Of a stretch of DNA of 64,000 nt, positions 6,919 to 13,260 are shown piece after piece. The notes beneath the pieces are model-generated. The model saw nothing but the letters and a program-made list of their open reading frames with translations. It was not told the origin of the DNA and did not search any database. The stretch comes from Candidatus Binatia bacterium (GTDB lineage Bacteria; Desulfobacterota; Binatia; UBA9968; JAJDTQ01). Position 1 is the stretch's first letter; every line of letters begins with the position of its first letter. The position numbers and the translations under genes were made by a program. The stretch spans positions 33,230 through 97,229 of the forward strand of contig JAJEAI010000088.1 of the NCBI GenBank assembly GCA_022824205.1, in the 5' to 3' direction.

Positions 6919-7126
6919 TAGTGTCCTGTCCCGTACAAAACGTCGTGAAGATGCGCAGGACTTTTTGCCGTCGGCAAGGAGCGACGACTGTAGGGGCGAC
7001 CCGCGGTCGCCCCAGTGGCCCCTACCACGCGAGGATGACCCCGGGTCAAGCCCCGGGGTGACGTAACGCAGCCGACTGCGAAAAGGACAAGCAGATTCAT
7101 GGCGTTTTATACGGGACAGGACACTA
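6919..7126. mobile_element. MITE-like element, type 1 (208 bp)
   Basis: Terminal inverted repeats of about 24 bp: the left begins TAGTGTCCTGTCCCGTACAA and the right ends TATACGGGACAGGACACTA. CTAG lies at both outer ends, consistent with a TA or CTAG target. No coding capacity is seen. The centre (GTAGGGGCGACCCGCGGTCG, then GACCCCGGGTCAAGCCC) is shared with the type 2 elements at 46752-46958 and 57965-58149, although the termini differ. The right end supplies the stop codon of the persulfide dioxygenase gene. Confidence 0.8.
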
Positions 7127-8161
7127 GCGTTCAACCGGCAGGCCCGCCTCATTCCAGGCGACGAGACCTCCGGCCAGATTGGAGACGTCCGTGAAACCGG
7201 ATTTGCCGAGGATGGCCGCCGCGGTGGCGCTGCGCATGCCGGCGCGGCAGACCGTCACCACCGGAGCTTCCTTGTGTTCGTCGATGTCCTCCAGGCGGTT
7301 GATGAGTTCGCGGAGCGGCAGCAGGATGCTGCCGGCCAGATGGCCGAGCTCGCCCGAGTATTCCCCTGGCTCGCGCACGTCCACCAACAACGGCGGCTTG
7401 TCGGAAAGGAGCATTGCCTGAAGGCCTTCGATGTCAACCAGTCGCACCTGCTTGAGCTCGCTCCAGTCCGGGAAGCTGATCTCGTCCCTTCCGAGGGCGG
7501 ACTGGTTGGGCTGCAACACCTCCTGGATGTTCTGGGGCGGCGAGAGATTGAGGTTGTTCATCAGGTGGATGAAGTCGGGCCGCGTGCGGTTGGCGAGACG
7601 GGGATTGGTGCGCTTTTCCGCGTCGATGGTGGAGGTGGTGTTGCCGCGGTAGTCGTGGCCGGGGTGGACCACGGTTTCATCCGGCAAGGTGAAGAGTTTC
7701 CGAGTGACGGAATCGTACTGAGAGCCGGCATCGCCGCCCGCAAAGTCGGTGCGTCCGCAACCGCCGATGAACAGGGTGTCGCCGGTGAGGACGTGCCCTT
7801 CCACCACGAGGCTCATGCCGTCAGGGGTGTGCCCGGGGGTGTGCAGGACCCGCACGGTGAGGTCGCCGACGGAAAACTCTTCGCCGTCTTCCAGGTGGAT
7901 GTCGACGGCCGGGCTGGGCGCCCACTTGTGCATGGCGAACGGCGCACCGACCAGGAAACGCAACTGCGGGCAGCCGCTCAGGTGGTCGGCGTGGGTGTGC
8001 GTGTCGATGGCCATATCCAGTTCCAGGCGGTGGTAGGCAAGCACGGCGAGATACCGTTCCACATGGGTCCAGAGGGGGTCTACCAGGACGGCGCGTCCCC
8101 TGCCCTCGTCCGCTATGAGGTAAGTCTTGCTGCTCTCGCCGTTCAGTTCGCGCAGGATCAT
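7124..8161 (-). CDS. Persulfide dioxygenase (ETHE1-like) fused to a rhodanese domain
   Basis: 345 residues. Residues 1-240 form a metallo-beta-lactamase-fold persulfide dioxygenase: THTHADHLSG (His55, His57, Asp59, His60), HTPGHTPDG, TGDTLFIGGCGRTDF and HPGHDY. Residues 250-345 are a rhodanese domain with catalytic Cys305 in VCRAGMRSA. The pair oxidises glutathione persulfide to sulfite and exchanges sulfane sulfur with thiols or sulfite. It follows the SQR gene by 87 bases, so sulfide is oxidised to persulfide by SQR and then to sulfite or thiosulfate here. The stop codon TAG is the last CTAG of the MITE. The C-terminus (AGLPVER) looks complete for a rhodanese, so little or nothing was lost. 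Confidence 0.9.
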   Translation of the reverse strand: MILRELNGESSKTYLIADEGRGRAVLVDPLWTHVERYLAVLAYHRLELDMAIDTHTHADHLSGCPQLRFLVGAPFAMHKWAPSPAVDIHLEDGEEFSVGDLTVRVLHTPGHTPDGMSLVVEGHVLTGDTLFIGGCGRTDFAGGDAGSQYDSVTRKLFTLPDETVVHPGHDYRGNTTSTIDAEKRTNPRLANRTRPDFIHLMNNLNLSPPQNIQEVLQPNQSALGRDEISFPDWSELKQVRLVDIEGLQAMLLSDKPPLLVDVREPGEYSGELGHLAGSILLPLRELINRLEDIDEHKEAPVVTVCRAGMRSATAAAILGKSGFTDVSNLAGGLVAWNEAGLPVER

Positions 8162-8248: not shown

Positions 8249-9406
8249 TCAGAAATATCGCCATAGCCACCATTTCTCGAACAGGACCTTGCTCCAGTAG
8301 ATCATCCGGGACGGTCCCCAGGAGCGCGAGTCGGTGACGCCGAAGGGCGGCCATCCTTGGGGATACGTGGTGCGATTGGCGGCGGCGCGTCCCGCGCCGC
8401 AGGAGAGCAGTCATATGGTGTGCAGGTGCAGGGTCGACAACTCCCCTTCCCCGGTGATCTCCGCCACCAGGTTGTCCGCCACCACGTCCGCCTCCTGGTG
8501 CGCCACGCCGCCGGCCTTGGACGCCGGCATGTTGGCGCAGTCACCGATGGCGTAGACGTTCTCCCACTTGGTCTCCAGGGTGTCGTAGTCCACCTGGATG
8601 CCGGACTCGTTGTCCACCAGTCCGCAGTCGTAGAGCACACTGGAGGGTCGGTGCGGCGGCACCATGAAGAGCAGGTCGTAGGAAAGCTCGTAGCCGTACA
8701 GGCCGTGGACGCGCTTCTTCTCCGGGTCGATGGACTGTATGACGAAGTCGTAATGGATCGTAACGTCGCGTTTCTTGCTCTGGGCGTCCATCCATACCGA
8801 CGGCATGTGTTCTTCGCCGGCGGGCTCGGGCTCGCGGGTAAAGTACTGAATGTCCACGAGATCGCGGATATTGCGTTCCTTGAAGTAGCTGTCCAGCATC
8901 CACTGGGCTTCGTACGGGGCCGGCGGACAGCGGTAGGGACCCAGCGGCACGCCCACGACGACGCGCCCCTCGCGGAAGCTCTCGAGCGTGGTTTTCAGCC
9001 GCAACGCGGCGTCCATCTCCCAAGGATGGTGCGCTCCTTCCGCGAAGCCCGGCAGCAGGTCGGGTCTTACTTCCAGACCCAGGGACACCACCAGGTAGTC
9101 ATAGGGGATGGCCGTGCTATCGAGAATCACTTGCTGGCGGCCGGGATCGATACCCAGGATCTCCGCCTGAAGGACCCGGATGTTGCGCTTCTCGAGACGT
9201 TTCAGTTTCCGGGAAATGTCCTCGGGACGGCGCTGCCCGACCATGAGAAACAGGAAAGCGGGCATGAAGATGTGATCGGTCCGGCGGTCGATGAGCGTGA
9301 TGTCGTGGTCCGCCCCGAGGGCGCGGCCGAGTTTTGTGGCCGCCACCACGCCGCCGCTCCCGCCTCCGAGCACGACGATCTGTTTCCTGCCGTTGTGGTA
9401 GTGCAT
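8249..9406 (-). CDS. sqr: Sulfide:quinone oxidoreductase with in-frame TGA, candidate selenoprotein
   Basis: Membrane-associated FAD enzyme that oxidises sulfide and reduces quinone. Residues 1-331 contain the FAD-binding motif VVLGGGSGG, GQRRPEDI, redox Cys160 in GPYRCPPAPYE and the second FAD stretch YAIGDCANMPASKAGGVAHQ. The frame meets TGA at 8413-8411 (codon 332) and stays open to a second TGA at 8251-8249. The extension contains LLSCGAGR, YPQGWPPFGVTDSRSWGP and the family's ending SKVLFEKWWLWRYF, giving 385 residues, a normal SQR length. The TGA stands at the position of the second redox cysteine of SQRs (ICIADFG in the Acidithiobacillus enzyme, from memory). A SECIS-like hairpin follows. 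Alternatives are a nonsense mutation from TGC/TGT or a sequence error. SQR identity is firm; selenocysteine is inferred. Confidence 0.85.
8382..8413 (-). promoter_or_regulatory. Candidate bacterial SECIS hairpin after the in-frame TGA
   Basis: Reading the minus strand: TGA (8413-8411), ten bases CTGCTCTCCT, stem GCGGCGCG (8400-8393), loop GGA (8392-8390), stem CGCGCCGC (8389-8382). The 8-bp stem is perfect. The loop starts 18 bases after the TGA and has G in its first two positions, matching the general bacterial SECIS description (short loop containing an early G, about 16-37 bases from UGA). High GC content makes chance hairpins more likely here. Confidence 0.5.
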
Positions 9407-9433: not shown

Positions 9434-9643
9434 TCAGGAAGCTTCCCGCTGCCGCCGCTTGGCGCGCAGGGCGAGGCCCTTGAGATTGCGCATGCGCCGG
9501 TCGCGCCACATGCGCTGTTCCTGCCGCCCCTCGTCGGTCAGCTCGGATTCGAATCGTGAAGTGCCGCGGATCAGGCGCAGCACCAGATAGTCGGAGCACT
9601 CCTTGACCCGCTCCGCAAACCATGTGAAGAGTCCGCCGGACAT
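9434..9643 (-). CDS. Small basic protein of unknown function
   Basis: 69 residues from ATG 9643, 7 bases after the stop of the DapA-like gene and 27 bases before the SQR start, so it is part of the same transcript. An upstream in-frame ATG (9679) would overlap the aldolase gene and is less likely. The N-terminus (GGLFTWFAERVKECSDYLVLR) could form an amphipathic helix; the rest is rich in Arg, Glu and Gln (RMWRDRRMRNLKGLALRAKR). There is one cysteine. No known domain is recognised. Its place beside SQR allows a role in membrane attachment of the sulfide pathway, but nothing in the sequence shows this. Confidence 0.5.
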   Translation of the reverse strand: MSGGLFTWFAERVKECSDYLVLRLIRGTSRFESELTDEGRQEQRMWRDRRMRNLKGLALRAKRRQREAS

Positions 9644-9650
9644 GGCCTTG

Positions 9651-10616
9651 TCAACGCAGGAAGGTGTCTTCCTGGGCAAGCTGGACCGCGGCCTGGTCGA
9701 AGGCGGCTTCGTCCGGCTCTCCGTCGCCCAGGATGCCGATCTGGCTCAGGAACTGCCCGATCTGGGCGTGGTCCCGCGGACTCACCGGCGCGTACGGCCG
9801 GCCCGGGTCGCCGATGTCCACGCCGAAGTGCTTGAGGGCCGACTTCATGATCGGCGGCAGCCCGTAGGCGCCCCACTTGCCCGGAAAGAGCGTGAAGCAA
9901 CGCTGCCAGTAGCGTGCCCTGTCGATGTCGCCGTCCCGGAATGCACGCACCACGCGCGCGCCGATGCGGGTGCCCGGCGGCGGCATGGTGGCGCCCGCGC
10001 CTCCCATCATGAGCGTGGTCAGCAGGGGCTGCATGGTGGTGAAGTAGTTGGCCTTGCCGGCGAGCTGTATTTGCTCGATGAGCCGGGTGATCTTGGTGAT
10101 GTCCCTCGAGCTTTCCTTGAAGTAGTCGACCTTGTTCAACTCGCTCAGACGCACGAACGCGTCGAGGGGTGGGTCCGCGCCGGGACCGGGGTTGTGATAG
10201 GCGACGATGGGCAATGGACTCGCCGACGCCACCTCGGTGAAGAACTGTACCAGATCCGAGATGGTCGGTTGTCCGCCCCACGGCCGGATGGGCATCAGCA
10301 CCTGGATGAGGTCGCCGCCCACGGCCGCGGCATGCTCCGCCAGATCCAGGATCGTGTCGATGGAGTGGCTCGACGCCCCGAGGATGACGGGCACGCGCTT
10401 GTTGACGATCTCGGTGGCGCGCCGCATCACTTCCTTGCGGTCCTCGAGCGAGAGCACCGTGTATTCCGACGCTTCCACCGCGGCGATGGAAACGGCGTCG
10501 CAGTCGGTCACGAGAAACTCGATCTCGCGCGCGAGGGCGTCGTAGTCCACCCGTCCATCGTCCGTGAACGGGGTCAGTGCCGCGCCGATGATTCCTCTGA
10601 TGGGGCTAGCCAGCAT
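9651..10616 (-). CDS. Dihydrodipicolinate synthase family aldolase (not DapA proper)
   Basis: 321 residues, a class I aldolase TIM barrel. The Schiff-base lysine is Lys167 (FKESS) and the catalytic tyrosine is Tyr140 (YHNPG), at DapA-like spacing. The GTTGE motif that binds pyruvate in DapA is replaced by AAVEASEY at about residues 45-52, so the keto-acid substrate is probably different. Family relatives act on sugar acids, hydroxyproline derivatives or aromatic aldol products. Gaps are 17 bases to the upstream cyclase gene and 7 bases to the downstream small gene, pointing to one operon with the sulfide genes. Assignment to the family is firm; the reaction is unknown. Confidence 0.85.
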   Translation of the reverse strand: MLASPIRGIIGAALTPFTDDGRVDYDALAREIEFLVTDCDAVSIAAVEASEYTVLSLEDRKEVMRRATEIVNKRVPVILGASSHSIDTILDLAEHAAAVGGDLIQVLMPIRPWGGQPTISDLVQFFTEVASASPLPIVAYHNPGPGADPPLDAFVRLSELNKVDYFKESSRDITKITRLIEQIQLAGKANYFTTMQPLLTTLMMGGAGATMPPPGTRIGARVVRAFRDGDIDRARYWQRCFTLFPGKWGAYGLPPIMKSALKHFGVDIGDPGRPYAPVSPRDHAQIGQFLSQIGILGDGEPDEAAFDQAAVQLAQEDTFLR

Positions 10617-10633: not shown

Positions 10634-11287
10634 TCACTGCAACTCCGCGACGATCCTCGCGTGCGCCGCGTCGCTGCCCTGCACCTTGAGGGGCAACGCC
10701 ATGATGCGGCAGTTTTGGCCCGCGATGGCGCCGAGGTTGGTGACGTTCTCCGCGATCAGCACGTCGTTGCCCAGCAGGGTGCGGTGCACCGGGAAGTCGA
10801 ACCCCTTGGGGCGCAGCGGCGTCGGCAGGTCCACCGTGATGCAGTCGATGCCGAAGAGCTTCACCCCGCGCTCCACGATCCATTCCGCCGCATCGACGGA
10901 CAGATAGGGATGCATATTGTATTCTTCGCTTTCGAACTTCTCGTCCCATCCGGTGTGCAGCATCAGGATGTCGCCGCCGTTGACCGCCACCCCGGACCCT
11001 TCGAGGTCCGCGGCCGTGACCTCCTCGCCGCCGCCTGTCCGCACCGAGATGACCGCGCCCGGGCCGACGAAGGCGTCGAGGGGCAGTTCCTCGATGGACT
11101 TGCCGTTGGGCACGATGTGCACCGGCGCGTCCACGTGGGTGCCGGCGTGGCACGGCAGGTTGATCTCGGTGACGTTGAGCGGGTGTCCCTTGCCGAGGTC
11201 GAAGAACCGCTGCACGTGCACGTCCGGCAGCACCGGAATCTTGGGCATGCCGTCGTAGATGAGCCGTGAGAGATCGATGATGGACAT
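10634..11287 (-). CDS. Cyclase family protein (kynurenine formamidase-like metal hydrolase)
   Basis: 217 residues. The metal-binding motif HxGTHxDxPxH is present as His47, Gly-Thr, His51, Asp53 and His57 (HAGTHVDAPVH). The later stretch DFPVHRTLLGNDV also fits PF04199. Family members hydrolyse N-formylkynurenine or other amides and lactones or act on isatin-like compounds; the substrate is not evident here. A second family member lies at 52899-53570 with the motif at the same residue numbers. It sits between the diiron-protein gene (40 bases upstream) and the aldolase gene (17 bases downstream). Cytoplasmic, no signal peptide. Confidence 0.88.
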   Translation of the reverse strand: MSIIDLSRLIYDGMPKIPVLPDVHVQRFFDLGKGHPLNVTEINLPCHAGTHVDAPVHIVPNGKSIEELPLDAFVGPGAVISVRTGGGEEVTAADLEGSGVAVNGGDILMLHTGWDEKFESEEYNMHPYLSVDAAEWIVERGVKLFGIDCITVDLPTPLRPKGFDFPVHRTLLGNDVLIAENVTNLGAIAGQNCRIMALPLKVQGSDAAHARIVAELQ

Positions 11288-11327: not shown

Positions 11328-12074
11328 TCAGGCGGTGCCGTTGCGCCACGCGGCGTAGATGGGGTCCTTGTCGACGAAGGCGCGCTTGATGCCGTCGAAC
11401 GCCAGCCAGAACTGGTCCAGGGTCTTCTGCACCGACTGGCGCACCACTTCCTGCTGCTGGTCGGTGACCGCGTACCGGCTCACTGCCAAGGGACCCACCT
11501 TCATGTGCTCTTCGTCCACCCCCATGTGGAGCGTCCAGTAGCGGATGTCGTCGCTTTCCCGGTCGAAGCCGTAGTGGGTGGTCAACCCGGTGACGATGCG
11601 GCTCATGCGCTCGCTGGCGGTGCCTTCCAGACAGAAACCCTGGCAGGCGTAGAGTTCCAGCCACGAGCGCTGGTACATGAGCAGGTCGCGCCAGTCGAGG
11701 AACGCCGAGGTCTCGGGCAGGGGTTGCACCGCGTCCAGCTCCTCCTTGGAGCCGTAGCCGCAGGCCATGGCGAAGCGGATGAAGAGGCCGCGGTGGCTGT
11801 CCGTGCCGGAGATCTCGCCGGTGCCCTCTTCCACCACGTTCTCGATCCACATTCTCTCCAGCTCCGCGTCCTCGGGGCAGCGCCCGAGCATGGTCGCGAT
11901 GGGCTTGGGAAAGGGCTTGGGGAAGAACAGGTAGAACTGGCCCACGAACCCCCTGAGCGCCGCGCGATCCAGTTCTCCCCTCTCGATCATCCCGATCAGC
12001 GGGTTGTCCTTGGAGTGCTTGTCGCGCACGGCGGCGTGTATCTCGTTGACGAACTCTTCGCCGGAAAGTGCCAT
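11328..12074 (-). CDS. Haem-oxygenase-like diiron protein (TenA/PqqC/CADD superfamily)
   Basis: 248 residues from ATG 12074, which has GGGAG 10 bases upstream; a longer frame to 12266 lacks homology and is not used. The all-helical fold is suggested by FVNEIHAAVRDKH and RGFVGQFYLFF. Candidate iron ligands are Glu82-Glu87 with His94 (EEGTGEISGTDSH), Glu150 (FCLEG), and His183, Asp187 and His190 (HMGVDEEH). The H-x3-D-x2-H spacing matches CADD-type haem-oxygenase-like diiron oxidases. Such enzymes cleave C-C bonds or make p-aminobenzoate or other products using O2. The neighbours are an amidohydrolase and a cyclase, so a ring- or amide-processing step is possible. Exact reaction unknown. Confidence 0.68.
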   Translation of the reverse strand: MALSGEEFVNEIHAAVRDKHSKDNPLIGMIERGELDRAALRGFVGQFYLFFPKPFPKPIATMLGRCPEDAELERMWIENVVEEGTGEISGTDSHRGLFIRFAMACGYGSKEELDAVQPLPETSAFLDWRDLLMYQRSWLELYACQGFCLEGTASERMSRIVTGLTTHYGFDRESDDIRYWTLHMGVDEEHMKVGPLAVSRYAVTDQQQEVVRQSVQKTLDQFWLAFDGIKRAFVDKDPIYAAWRNGTA

Positions 12075-12237
12075 CGAATATGCTCCCTCGTTCGTTTGAT
12101 TTCCCTTTGAATGGCCGATCCCGATGTCGCGGACGGCAACATCGGGATCGACGCTAACGCTTCGACGAAATAGACTAGTTAGTGGAAAGCGGCCGGCATC
12201 GCAACCGTTCGCGGCGACCGGCGCGCGTTCGCCTCCC

Positions 12238-13260
12238 TCAGTCGAGGCCGTAGAAGCGCCGGGCATTGTTGCCCAGTATGTTCTCCTTGGCGTCCCGCGT
12301 CAGGTCGTCCCGCCCCCAGATCAGCGAGCCCGATTCCGGCCAGCTCATGTCCCAATGGGGATAGTCCGAGGCGTACATGATGGTCTCGGAGCCGATCTCC
12401 CCCACCACGTAGCCGATGGTCTTCTCGTCGGGCTCGCAGCCGTAATAGACGTTCTTGCTGGTGATGTAGTGGCTGGGCTCGTGCTTGCACTCGGGGGCTT
12501 CCACCGCGCCGCGTTTCTCCCACTCCTCGTCCATCCGGTCGGACCAGTACGGTATCCAGCCGCAGCCGATCTCGAGAAACCCGAGCTTGAGGTCCGGGTA
12601 CATCTCCGGAATGCCCGCGAAGATCATGGCCGTGAGCTGGCGCAGCACCGGGAACGGGTGGCCGGTGGTGTGGATGGAGATGAACTGGTCGAAGATCTCG
12701 CTGCCAGGCTCGTCGCCGCCGAAGGCGTGGATCGCCAGCGGCGTATCGAGCTTCTGCGCTTCCTCGTACAGCGGAAAGAACTCGGCCGAGCCGAAGTTCT
12801 TGCTGTGGGCCTGGGCCGCCATCATGCCGCCCACGAGTCCCAACTCCTGGACCGCGTAGCGCAACTCCTCGGCCGCGGCCGCCGGGGCGTTGACGGGCAG
12901 GTTCGCCACCGCCTTGAGGCGCGGCGACGCCTTGCAGTAGTCCGCGATGAACTCGTTGTACGCGCGGCACAACTGGGTCTGGTAGTTGGGCTCGCGGATG
13001 TGTCCGATGCCCAAGCCACTGGTCGGGTACATGACCGCCGTGTGGATCTCCTGCGTATCCATGGCCGCCAGGCGTTCCTCGTGCTTGATGCCGGAGTGTC
13101 CCAGCGTTCCGCCCAGGTTGCGGTCGTAGGTTTCCCGCGGAATGAACGGCGGACGCCGGTTCTGGAATGCCTCGCCCAGGAAGGGCTTGACGAGATCGTC
13201 GTTGTCGCGCGCGTGCGCGTCGGCGTCGATCACCTTCACGGACGGATCGATCTTACCCAT
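12238..13260 (-). CDS. Amidohydrolase family 2 protein (ACMSD-like TIM barrel)
   Basis: 340 residues from ATG 13260, preceded by GGGAGA; an extension to 13344 is not supported. The N-terminus has VIDADAHARD (metal-binding D-x-H region), the middle HTAVMYPTSGLG and PLAIHAFGG, and the C-terminus the characteristic YASDYPHWDMSWPES and NILGNNARRFYGLD. These are hallmarks of PF04909 decarboxylases and hydrolases that act on carboxylated aromatic or muconate-type compounds. It lies 136 bases downstream of the oligopeptide-type ABC transporter, which may import its substrate. A second member is at 41102-42223. Family firm, substrate unknown. Confidence 0.88.
   Translation of the reverse strand: MGKIDPSVKVIDADAHARDNDDLVKPFLGEAFQNRRPPFIPRETYDRNLGGTLGHSGIKHEERLAAMDTQEIHTAVMYPTSGLGIGHIREPNYQTQLCRAYNEFIADYCKASPRLKAVANLPVNAPAAAAEELRYAVQELGLVGGMMAAQAHSKNFGSAEFFPLYEEAQKLDTPLAIHAFGGDEPGSEIFDQFISIHTTGHPFPVLRQLTAMIFAGIPEMYPDLKLGFLEIGCGWIPYWSDRMDEEWEKRGAVEAPECKHEPSHYITSKNVYYGCEPDEKTIGYVVGEIGSETIMYASDYPHWDMSWPESGSLIWGRDDLTRDAKENILGNNARRFYGLD

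Follow-up and report, generated by a model that had tools for sequence, protein, structure and literature searches.

Sulfide:quinone oxidoreductases (SQRs) are a main entry point of sulfide into respiratory chains. We analyzed an SQR-like gene with an internal TGA codon in a 64,000-nucleotide stretch of DNA from Candidatus Binatia bacterium (GenBank assembly GCA_022824205.1, contig JAJEAI010000088.1, positions 33,230 to 97,229 of the forward strand), hereafter called the window. When the TGA is taken as a residue, the minus-strand frame 9406-8249 has 386 codons; its single in-frame TGA (8413-8411) is codon 332 (U332) and is followed by 53 sense codons (333-385) and a terminal TGA at 8251-8249. 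A preliminary description, made from the sequence alone, had given the same position for the TGA and the same number of codons after it, and these coordinates were reproduced. We conclude with high confidence that the gene encodes an SQR-family flavoprotein in which UGA332 is likely read as selenocysteine (Sec) by means of a selenocysteine insertion sequence (SECIS)-like hairpin, that the protein probably carries out selenium-sulfur chemistry on sulfide, and that it forms a divergent branch of a kind of Sec-SQR that has already been listed.

The predicted model of the protein has a flavin adenine dinucleotide (FAD)/pyridine-nucleotide-disulfide oxidoreductase fold of the SQR type, and its closest structural matches are SQR and flavocytochrome c sulfide dehydrogenase. 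Cys160 (context GPYRCPPAPYE) aligns with the N-terminal catalytic Cys of human SQOR and is Cys in every alignment row. Codon 332 (motif LHTI-U-LLSCG) aligns with the C-terminal catalytic Cys of the same enzyme. Both SQR redox positions are hence kept, the second as a likely Sec codon in place of Cys. This agrees with the preliminary description, which had named Cys160 as the first redox Cys and had proposed that the TGA replaces the second.

Relatives were searched in 58 genomes (the source genome included), and some match was found in 44. In all 26 genomes whose match covers the site (the source genome and 25 relatives, 67-100% identity), residue 332 is TGA. Since 25 other assemblies have the same TGA, a sequencing error is very unlikely. 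Among the 58 genomes, two of the window's genus (G006 and G007) lack the gene. Fifteen of 396 Acidobacteriota genomes gave matches at E 1e-60 or better; TGA was present in three, a fourth close match stops short of the site, and the frame is uninterrupted in the 12 matches at 36-40% identity. A scan of named genomes yielded 30 loci, of which 18 belong to records titled Deltaproteobacteria, Candidatus Binatia, Syntrophobacter or Acidobacteria; TGA was found in the close ones that reach the site and Cys in the distant ones, except L041. One of the records, Syntrophobacter sp. SbD2 (L027/G058), is apparently the same as G017, a genome of the window's order (equal contig numbers and near-equal positions), and is probably misnamed.

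As the preliminary description had suggested, homologues were checked for Cys at codon 332. In P0006 (385 residues, 69% identical) the stretch is LHTICLLAF, which puts Cys in the Sec column, and EPGK stands in place of GAGR over the hairpin described below. Among the 68 rows of the tree, position 332 is TGA in 30, Cys in 37 and Asn in one (P0018). The 53 codons 3' of the TGA had a median ratio of nonsynonymous to synonymous substitution rates (dN/dS) of 0.073 (27 distinct genes; 275 of 351 pairs computable), with mean proportions of nonsynonymous and synonymous differences (pN and pS) of 0.108 and 0.656; for the 53 codons 5' of the TGA the ratio was 0.094 (232 of 351 pairs). This purifying selection past the TGA argues that it is not a true stop. 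The tails after the TGA end alike in the relatives read.

The hairpin that follows the TGA has a perfect 8-bp stem, GCGGCGCG/CGCGCCGC, and the loop GGA. Published limits for bacterial SECIS elements (bSECIS) are a loop of 3-9 nt with G in position one or two, a stem of 4-16 bp, a distance of 16-37 nt from the TGA and an energy of at most -7.5 kcal/mol (PMC13188914, legend of Fig. 2). The window hairpin lies within them (loop 3 nt, stem 8 bp, loop start 18 nt from the TGA, -15.3 kcal/mol), and the SECIS spacing noted in the preliminary description was thereby confirmed. As background, 153 of the 1579 TGA triplets on both strands of the window passed the same limits, and seven (0.44%, the one in question included) had a stem at least as stable. 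When distinct 90-nt stretches were compared (L041 not included), the limits were passed by 26/27 genes of clade A, the group to which the window gene belongs, by 7/7 genes of a second Sec group, clade B, and by 6/23 Cys homologues.

Codon usage in the stem points the same way. The third bases of the minimal stem are C at codon 337 (27/27 genes), codon 340 (27/27) and codon 341 (25/27), and these three codons take ranks 1-3 of synonymous constraint among 56 conserved degenerate codons; codon 339, in the loop, is unconstrained. In ten Cys homologues, each of the four bases occurs in the third position of codon 337, and CGC is not used for any of the eight Arg residues at 340. In clades A and B taken together, the Watson-Crick type varies at three of the six stem pairs (distinct 45-nt stretches: 26 A, 8 B and 23 Cys). 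Since related sequences are not independent, the constraint and pair counts are descriptive, not formal probabilities.

The source genome (4.82 Mb in 209 contigs, completeness 97.3, contamination 4.9) has a tRNA-Sec with anticodon TCA, and selA, selB and selD all lie on one of its contigs (C39). All four genes that the preliminary description had proposed to look for (selA, selB, selC and selD) were therefore found in the same assembly. The selD gene (L018) also carries a TGA in frame, close to its start and in the context AG-U-AAK. Judging from this sequence, SelD is likely also a selenoprotein, and the Sec-SQR would then not be the sole Sec gene of the genome. Among genomes with a TGA-containing SQR, selA was over the cut-off in 25/26 of the 58-genome set, 2/3 Acidobacteriota and 8/8 Methylomirabilota.

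TGA at this site occurs in two groups, with the motif HxxU in Binatia and Acidobacteriota and GYU in Methylomirabilota. In the latter phylum 14 of 95 genomes matched; one TGA was present in 8 of 15 among the matches listed, and it falls in the same column, within the GYU motif. We built a tree of 68 rows with the Sec column masked; short or frame-broken matches, among them L124 and L127, were dropped. Clade A comprises 23 Sec rows together with P0006 (Cys) and P0018 (Asn) on a starred branch with the value 100. In clade B, six Sec rows and three Cys rows stand under one starred branch, also with the value 100. L122, which is the L041 gene, groups with Cys rows in a fork that carries no star and may therefore be a case of its own. 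At least four changes between Sec and Cys are required by the starred branches, which do not settle their direction; a long-branch warning applies to the tree, including L047, which adjoins clade A. The hairpin sits on the same codons in both clades, with its loop at codon 339 and three pairs changed on both sides. Three of the six Cys genes that pass the bSECIS limits (L127, L130 and L133, all Methylomirabilota) have a hairpin of the clade B kind, in L133 with a compensated pair, and these are likely fossil SECIS elements left after reversion of Sec to Cys. In Methylomirabilota genomes with a Cys gene and a fossil hairpin, selA is kept in 2/3 and was not found in G536; loss of selA is hence no general cause of the reversions.

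The preliminary description knew of no described Sec-containing SQR. One is already on record: NCBIfam holds NF049943, "type III sulfide quinone reductase, selenoprotein subtype", and a Sec-SQR with the motif HxxU is listed in a 2026 review (PMC13188914), which cites the deep-Sep paper PMC12013277. PMC12013277 itself does not use the word quinone, and the SQR name stems from PMC13188914 and NCBIfam. In the literature read, this kind of protein has been listed by computation only, and the window protein is not the first of it. We found no experimental study of a Sec-SQR in the literature searched, which mostly did not extend to subscription papers and bioRxiv.

NF049943 is the best NCBIfam match of the window protein, at 262 bits against a cut-off of 525. 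The window protein is therefore a divergent branch, scoring half the cut-off. With respect to SQR type, its best NCBIfam match is to a type III family, at a score below the cut-off; the tree contains no typed reference SQRs by which to place it in the type III (SqrC) clade. No match reached the NF049943 cut-off in the source genome (G000), in nine genomes approached via relatives or in 14 controls. As no true member was thus obtained, we located the Sec column of the family by single-residue probe scans. C160A costs 5.6 bits, C332A 5.5, H329A 5.3 and P157H 4.7; T330A raises the score by 1.3 bits, and replacement of any of the other three Cys carries no cost (0 to +2.2 bits). These scores suggest that NF049943 has His-x-x-Cys/Sec at window columns 329-332, matching the HxxU given in PMC13188914, a match that is indirect in coming from profile probes and not from a member sequence. 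The window protein thus appears to share with the family the Cys/Sec columns at C160 and U332 and the His column at 329. The two differ in distribution: the window's clade was found in Binatia and Acidobacteriota, and for the published family two Desulfosediminicola are named, beside further TGA homologues.

Among characterized enzymes, human mitochondrial SQOR (6oi5, 8dhk; about 21% identity) carries its transferable persulfide on the Cys at whose position the window protein has Sec. The SQRs of Acidithiobacillus ferrooxidans and Aquifex aeolicus (3sxi, 3hyv) likewise have Cys there, which in A. ferrooxidans is Cys356, going by the title of entry 3sx6. The flavoprotein subunit of flavocytochrome c sulfide dehydrogenase (1fcd, 3vrd, 5n1t) has a cytochrome c partner; in contrast, no cytochrome domain was found in the 11 neighbouring frames of the window scanned with Pfam, a partner elsewhere in the genome not having been sought.

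The Sec-SQR gene stands in a row of genes on one strand with short gaps, in the order haem-oxygenase-like protein, cyclase, dihydrodipicolinate synthase (DHDPS)-like protein, 69-residue protein, Sec-SQR and metallo-beta-lactamase-fold/rhodanese fusion (Table 1). Of the 32 clade A loci compared, 27 extend 700 nt or more upstream, with L036 and L079 representing a single place. In all of these (27/27) the DHDPS-like gene lies upstream of the Sec-SQR gene on its strand, and the gene for the 69-residue protein, which has no Pfam or NCBIfam match, does so in 24/27, Acidobacteriota included in both cases. The cyclase gene is present in 19 clade A loci and in no Acidobacteriota locus. For the haem-oxygenase-like protein, the alignment with most relatives starts only at about residue 60. 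In the seven loci of the window's genus the fusion gene follows Sec-SQR in the same orientation, and it occurs once more, inverted, in L033. Its end is abutted by a 208-bp element (6919-7126) with 17-bp perfect inverted repeats, TAGTGTCCTGTCCCGTA, which looks like a miniature inverted-repeat transposable element; no further copies of the repeat were found within the 64-kb window.

Table 1. Features of the Sec-SQR locus (window coordinates)
Feature	Position	Strand	Basis
Metallo-beta-lactamase-fold and rhodanese fusion, persulfide-dioxygenase-like	7124..8161	minus	next gene downstream; domain matches
Sec-SQR gene, 385 codons through TGA plus stop	8249..9406	minus	Pyr_redox_2 and FCSD_central domains; SQR fold in predicted model
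53 codons 3' of TGA, including C-terminal helix	8252..8410	minus	dN/dS; helix 367-384 in model
SECIS-like hairpin, 8-bp stem, GGA loop beginning 18 nt past TGA	8382..8400	minus	bSECIS limits and codon constraint
In-frame TGA, codon 332, likely selenocysteine	8411..8413	minus	frame reading; TGA kept in relatives
TGT codon of Cys160, first redox cysteine	8927..8929	minus	invariant in alignment; aligned to N-terminal catalytic Cys of human SQOR
69-residue protein without family match	9434..9643	minus	conserved upstream of clade A Sec-SQR genes
DHDPS-family aldolase/lyase-like protein	9651..10616	minus	conserved upstream in both clade A phyla
Putative cyclase (PF04199; arylformamidase-like)	10634..11287	minus	conserved upstream in Binatia loci
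Haem-oxygenase-like iron protein (PF14518)	11328..12266	minus	conserved upstream where Binatia loci have long flanks

Several observations weigh against Sec at position 332. P0018 (64% identical, full-length) has Asn in the Sec column, so its second redox residue is missing entirely. A clade A gene that is frame-broken in its contig (L037) fails the bSECIS limits. The 48-nt stretch after the TGA is on its own no more stable than shuffled sequences (z = -0.74); we therefore dropped single-sequence folding as proof of a SECIS element and replaced it by codon constraint, background rate and pair counts, and the SECIS case rests on conservation. Co-occurrence with selA was rejected as weak proof of Sec, because selA was over the cut-off in 51 of the 58 genomes. 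In addition, G020, a 96% complete genome of the window's order, has the TGA gene and neither selA nor selB over the cut-off, which reflects either an assembly gap or loss of the machinery, and in G059 selB was found and selA was not. If the TGA were an ordinary stop, the product would be a 331-residue protein or the gene would be decaying. Indeed, 117 public relatives, among the matches listed (120 of 1312), stop at the residue directly before the Sec column, as gene finders make them do, and the FAD domains fit within 331 residues. However, the 53 downstream codons are under selection and end alike in relatives, the tail matches SQR structures, Cys homologues read through the site, and truncation would remove the second redox residue and the C-terminal helix; we regard a stop as very improbable. 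Database entries cut at this point make the second redox residue seem missing, a systematic annotation problem. Insertion of another amino acid, by a reassigned code or tRNA suppression, has in its favour the open frame and nothing else, and we give it even less credence: this gene and relatives of it also end on a TGA, the 38 non-TGA rows are 37 Cys and one Asn with no Trp or Gly, codon 332 is followed by a SECIS-like hairpin whose stem bases are frozen, and the genome has tRNA-Sec. Sec at position 332 is very likely on this sequence evidence. The proposal of the preliminary description is thus supported, and no test of it that could be run gave a contrary result.

We think it reasonably probable that Sec and Cys have been swapped repeatedly at the sulfane-sulfur position of this family, with at least two distant Sec groups, Cys reversions that keep fossil hairpins, a mixed selenium-sulfur bridge and a conserved gene cluster that clade A serves. 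That this part of the family instead started out with Sec and lost it many times, as opposed to gaining it separately in clades A and B, is a reading we entertain only tentatively. The placement of the hairpin on identical codons in both clades and its retention in the Cys members L127, L130 and L133 speak for it, but Cys rows are the majority and fall between the clades, the changes forced by starred branches carry no direction, and many Cys homologues also have Gly337, Gly339 and Ala341, residues that could make a second origin of the same hairpin more likely. As to function, the use with the best support is oxidation of sulfide by way of a mixed selenium-sulfur bridge, and the conserved gene cluster leaves room for a different substrate. 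The protein could be a genuine SQR-fold selenoprotein that oxidizes, instead of free sulfide, another sulfur or selenium compound or a persulfide, supplied by the conserved cluster of cyclase, DHDPS-like and 69-residue proteins, and passes electrons to quinone. The conserved neighbours (PF14518, PF04199, DHDPS-family and 69-residue proteins in Binatia; the DHDPS-like and 69-residue proteins in Acidobacteriota) and the long, starred branch of clade A are consistent with this. Against sulfide as the substrate it also counts that the neighbours found beyond the window's genus include no sulfide genes, and that the fusion protein scores 100 bits against the bifunctional sulfurtransferase/dioxygenase Blh, far below the cut-off of 625, so that "persulfide-dioxygenase-like" is a presumptive label. 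Nevertheless, both SQR catalytic positions are retained, the best structural matches are sulfide-oxidizing enzymes (SQR and flavocytochrome c sulfide dehydrogenase), and the persulfide-dioxygenase-like/rhodanese gene comes next in the window's genus; we consider another substrate unlikely.

The pairing of UGA with Cys, the conserved hairpin, the Sec machinery genes, the fold and the Cys160 partner come from the sequence or from a computed model, and sulfide oxidation by such a protein may proceed as follows. Cys160 and Sec332 would face each other beside the FAD, in the manner of Cys201 and Cys379 in human SQOR, and be joined by a mixed selenium-sulfur bridge, either S-Se or S-S-Se. Sulfide would attack this bridge; Sec332 would retain the sulfane sulfur as a selenopersulfide and pass it to an acceptor, while the Cys160 sulfur would enter a charge-transfer complex with FAD. 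FADH2 would then reduce quinone while the C-terminal helix rests on the membrane. With selenium, the bridge may be opened and the sulfane sulfur handed on more readily, and in the window's genus the downstream fusion protein could accept that sulfur.

If Sec is used, the enzyme would handle sulfide by selenium in place of sulfur. Selenium at the presumed sulfane-sulfur atom offers a natural experiment on why enzymes bear the cost of Sec for sulfur chemistry, and the relatives supply matched Sec and Cys enzymes, together with Cys genes that keep fossil SECIS elements, with which the effect of the swap can be measured. If the reading of repeated exchange is true, clade A would serve an undescribed conserved cluster with a cyclase, a DHDPS-like protein and a 69-residue protein.
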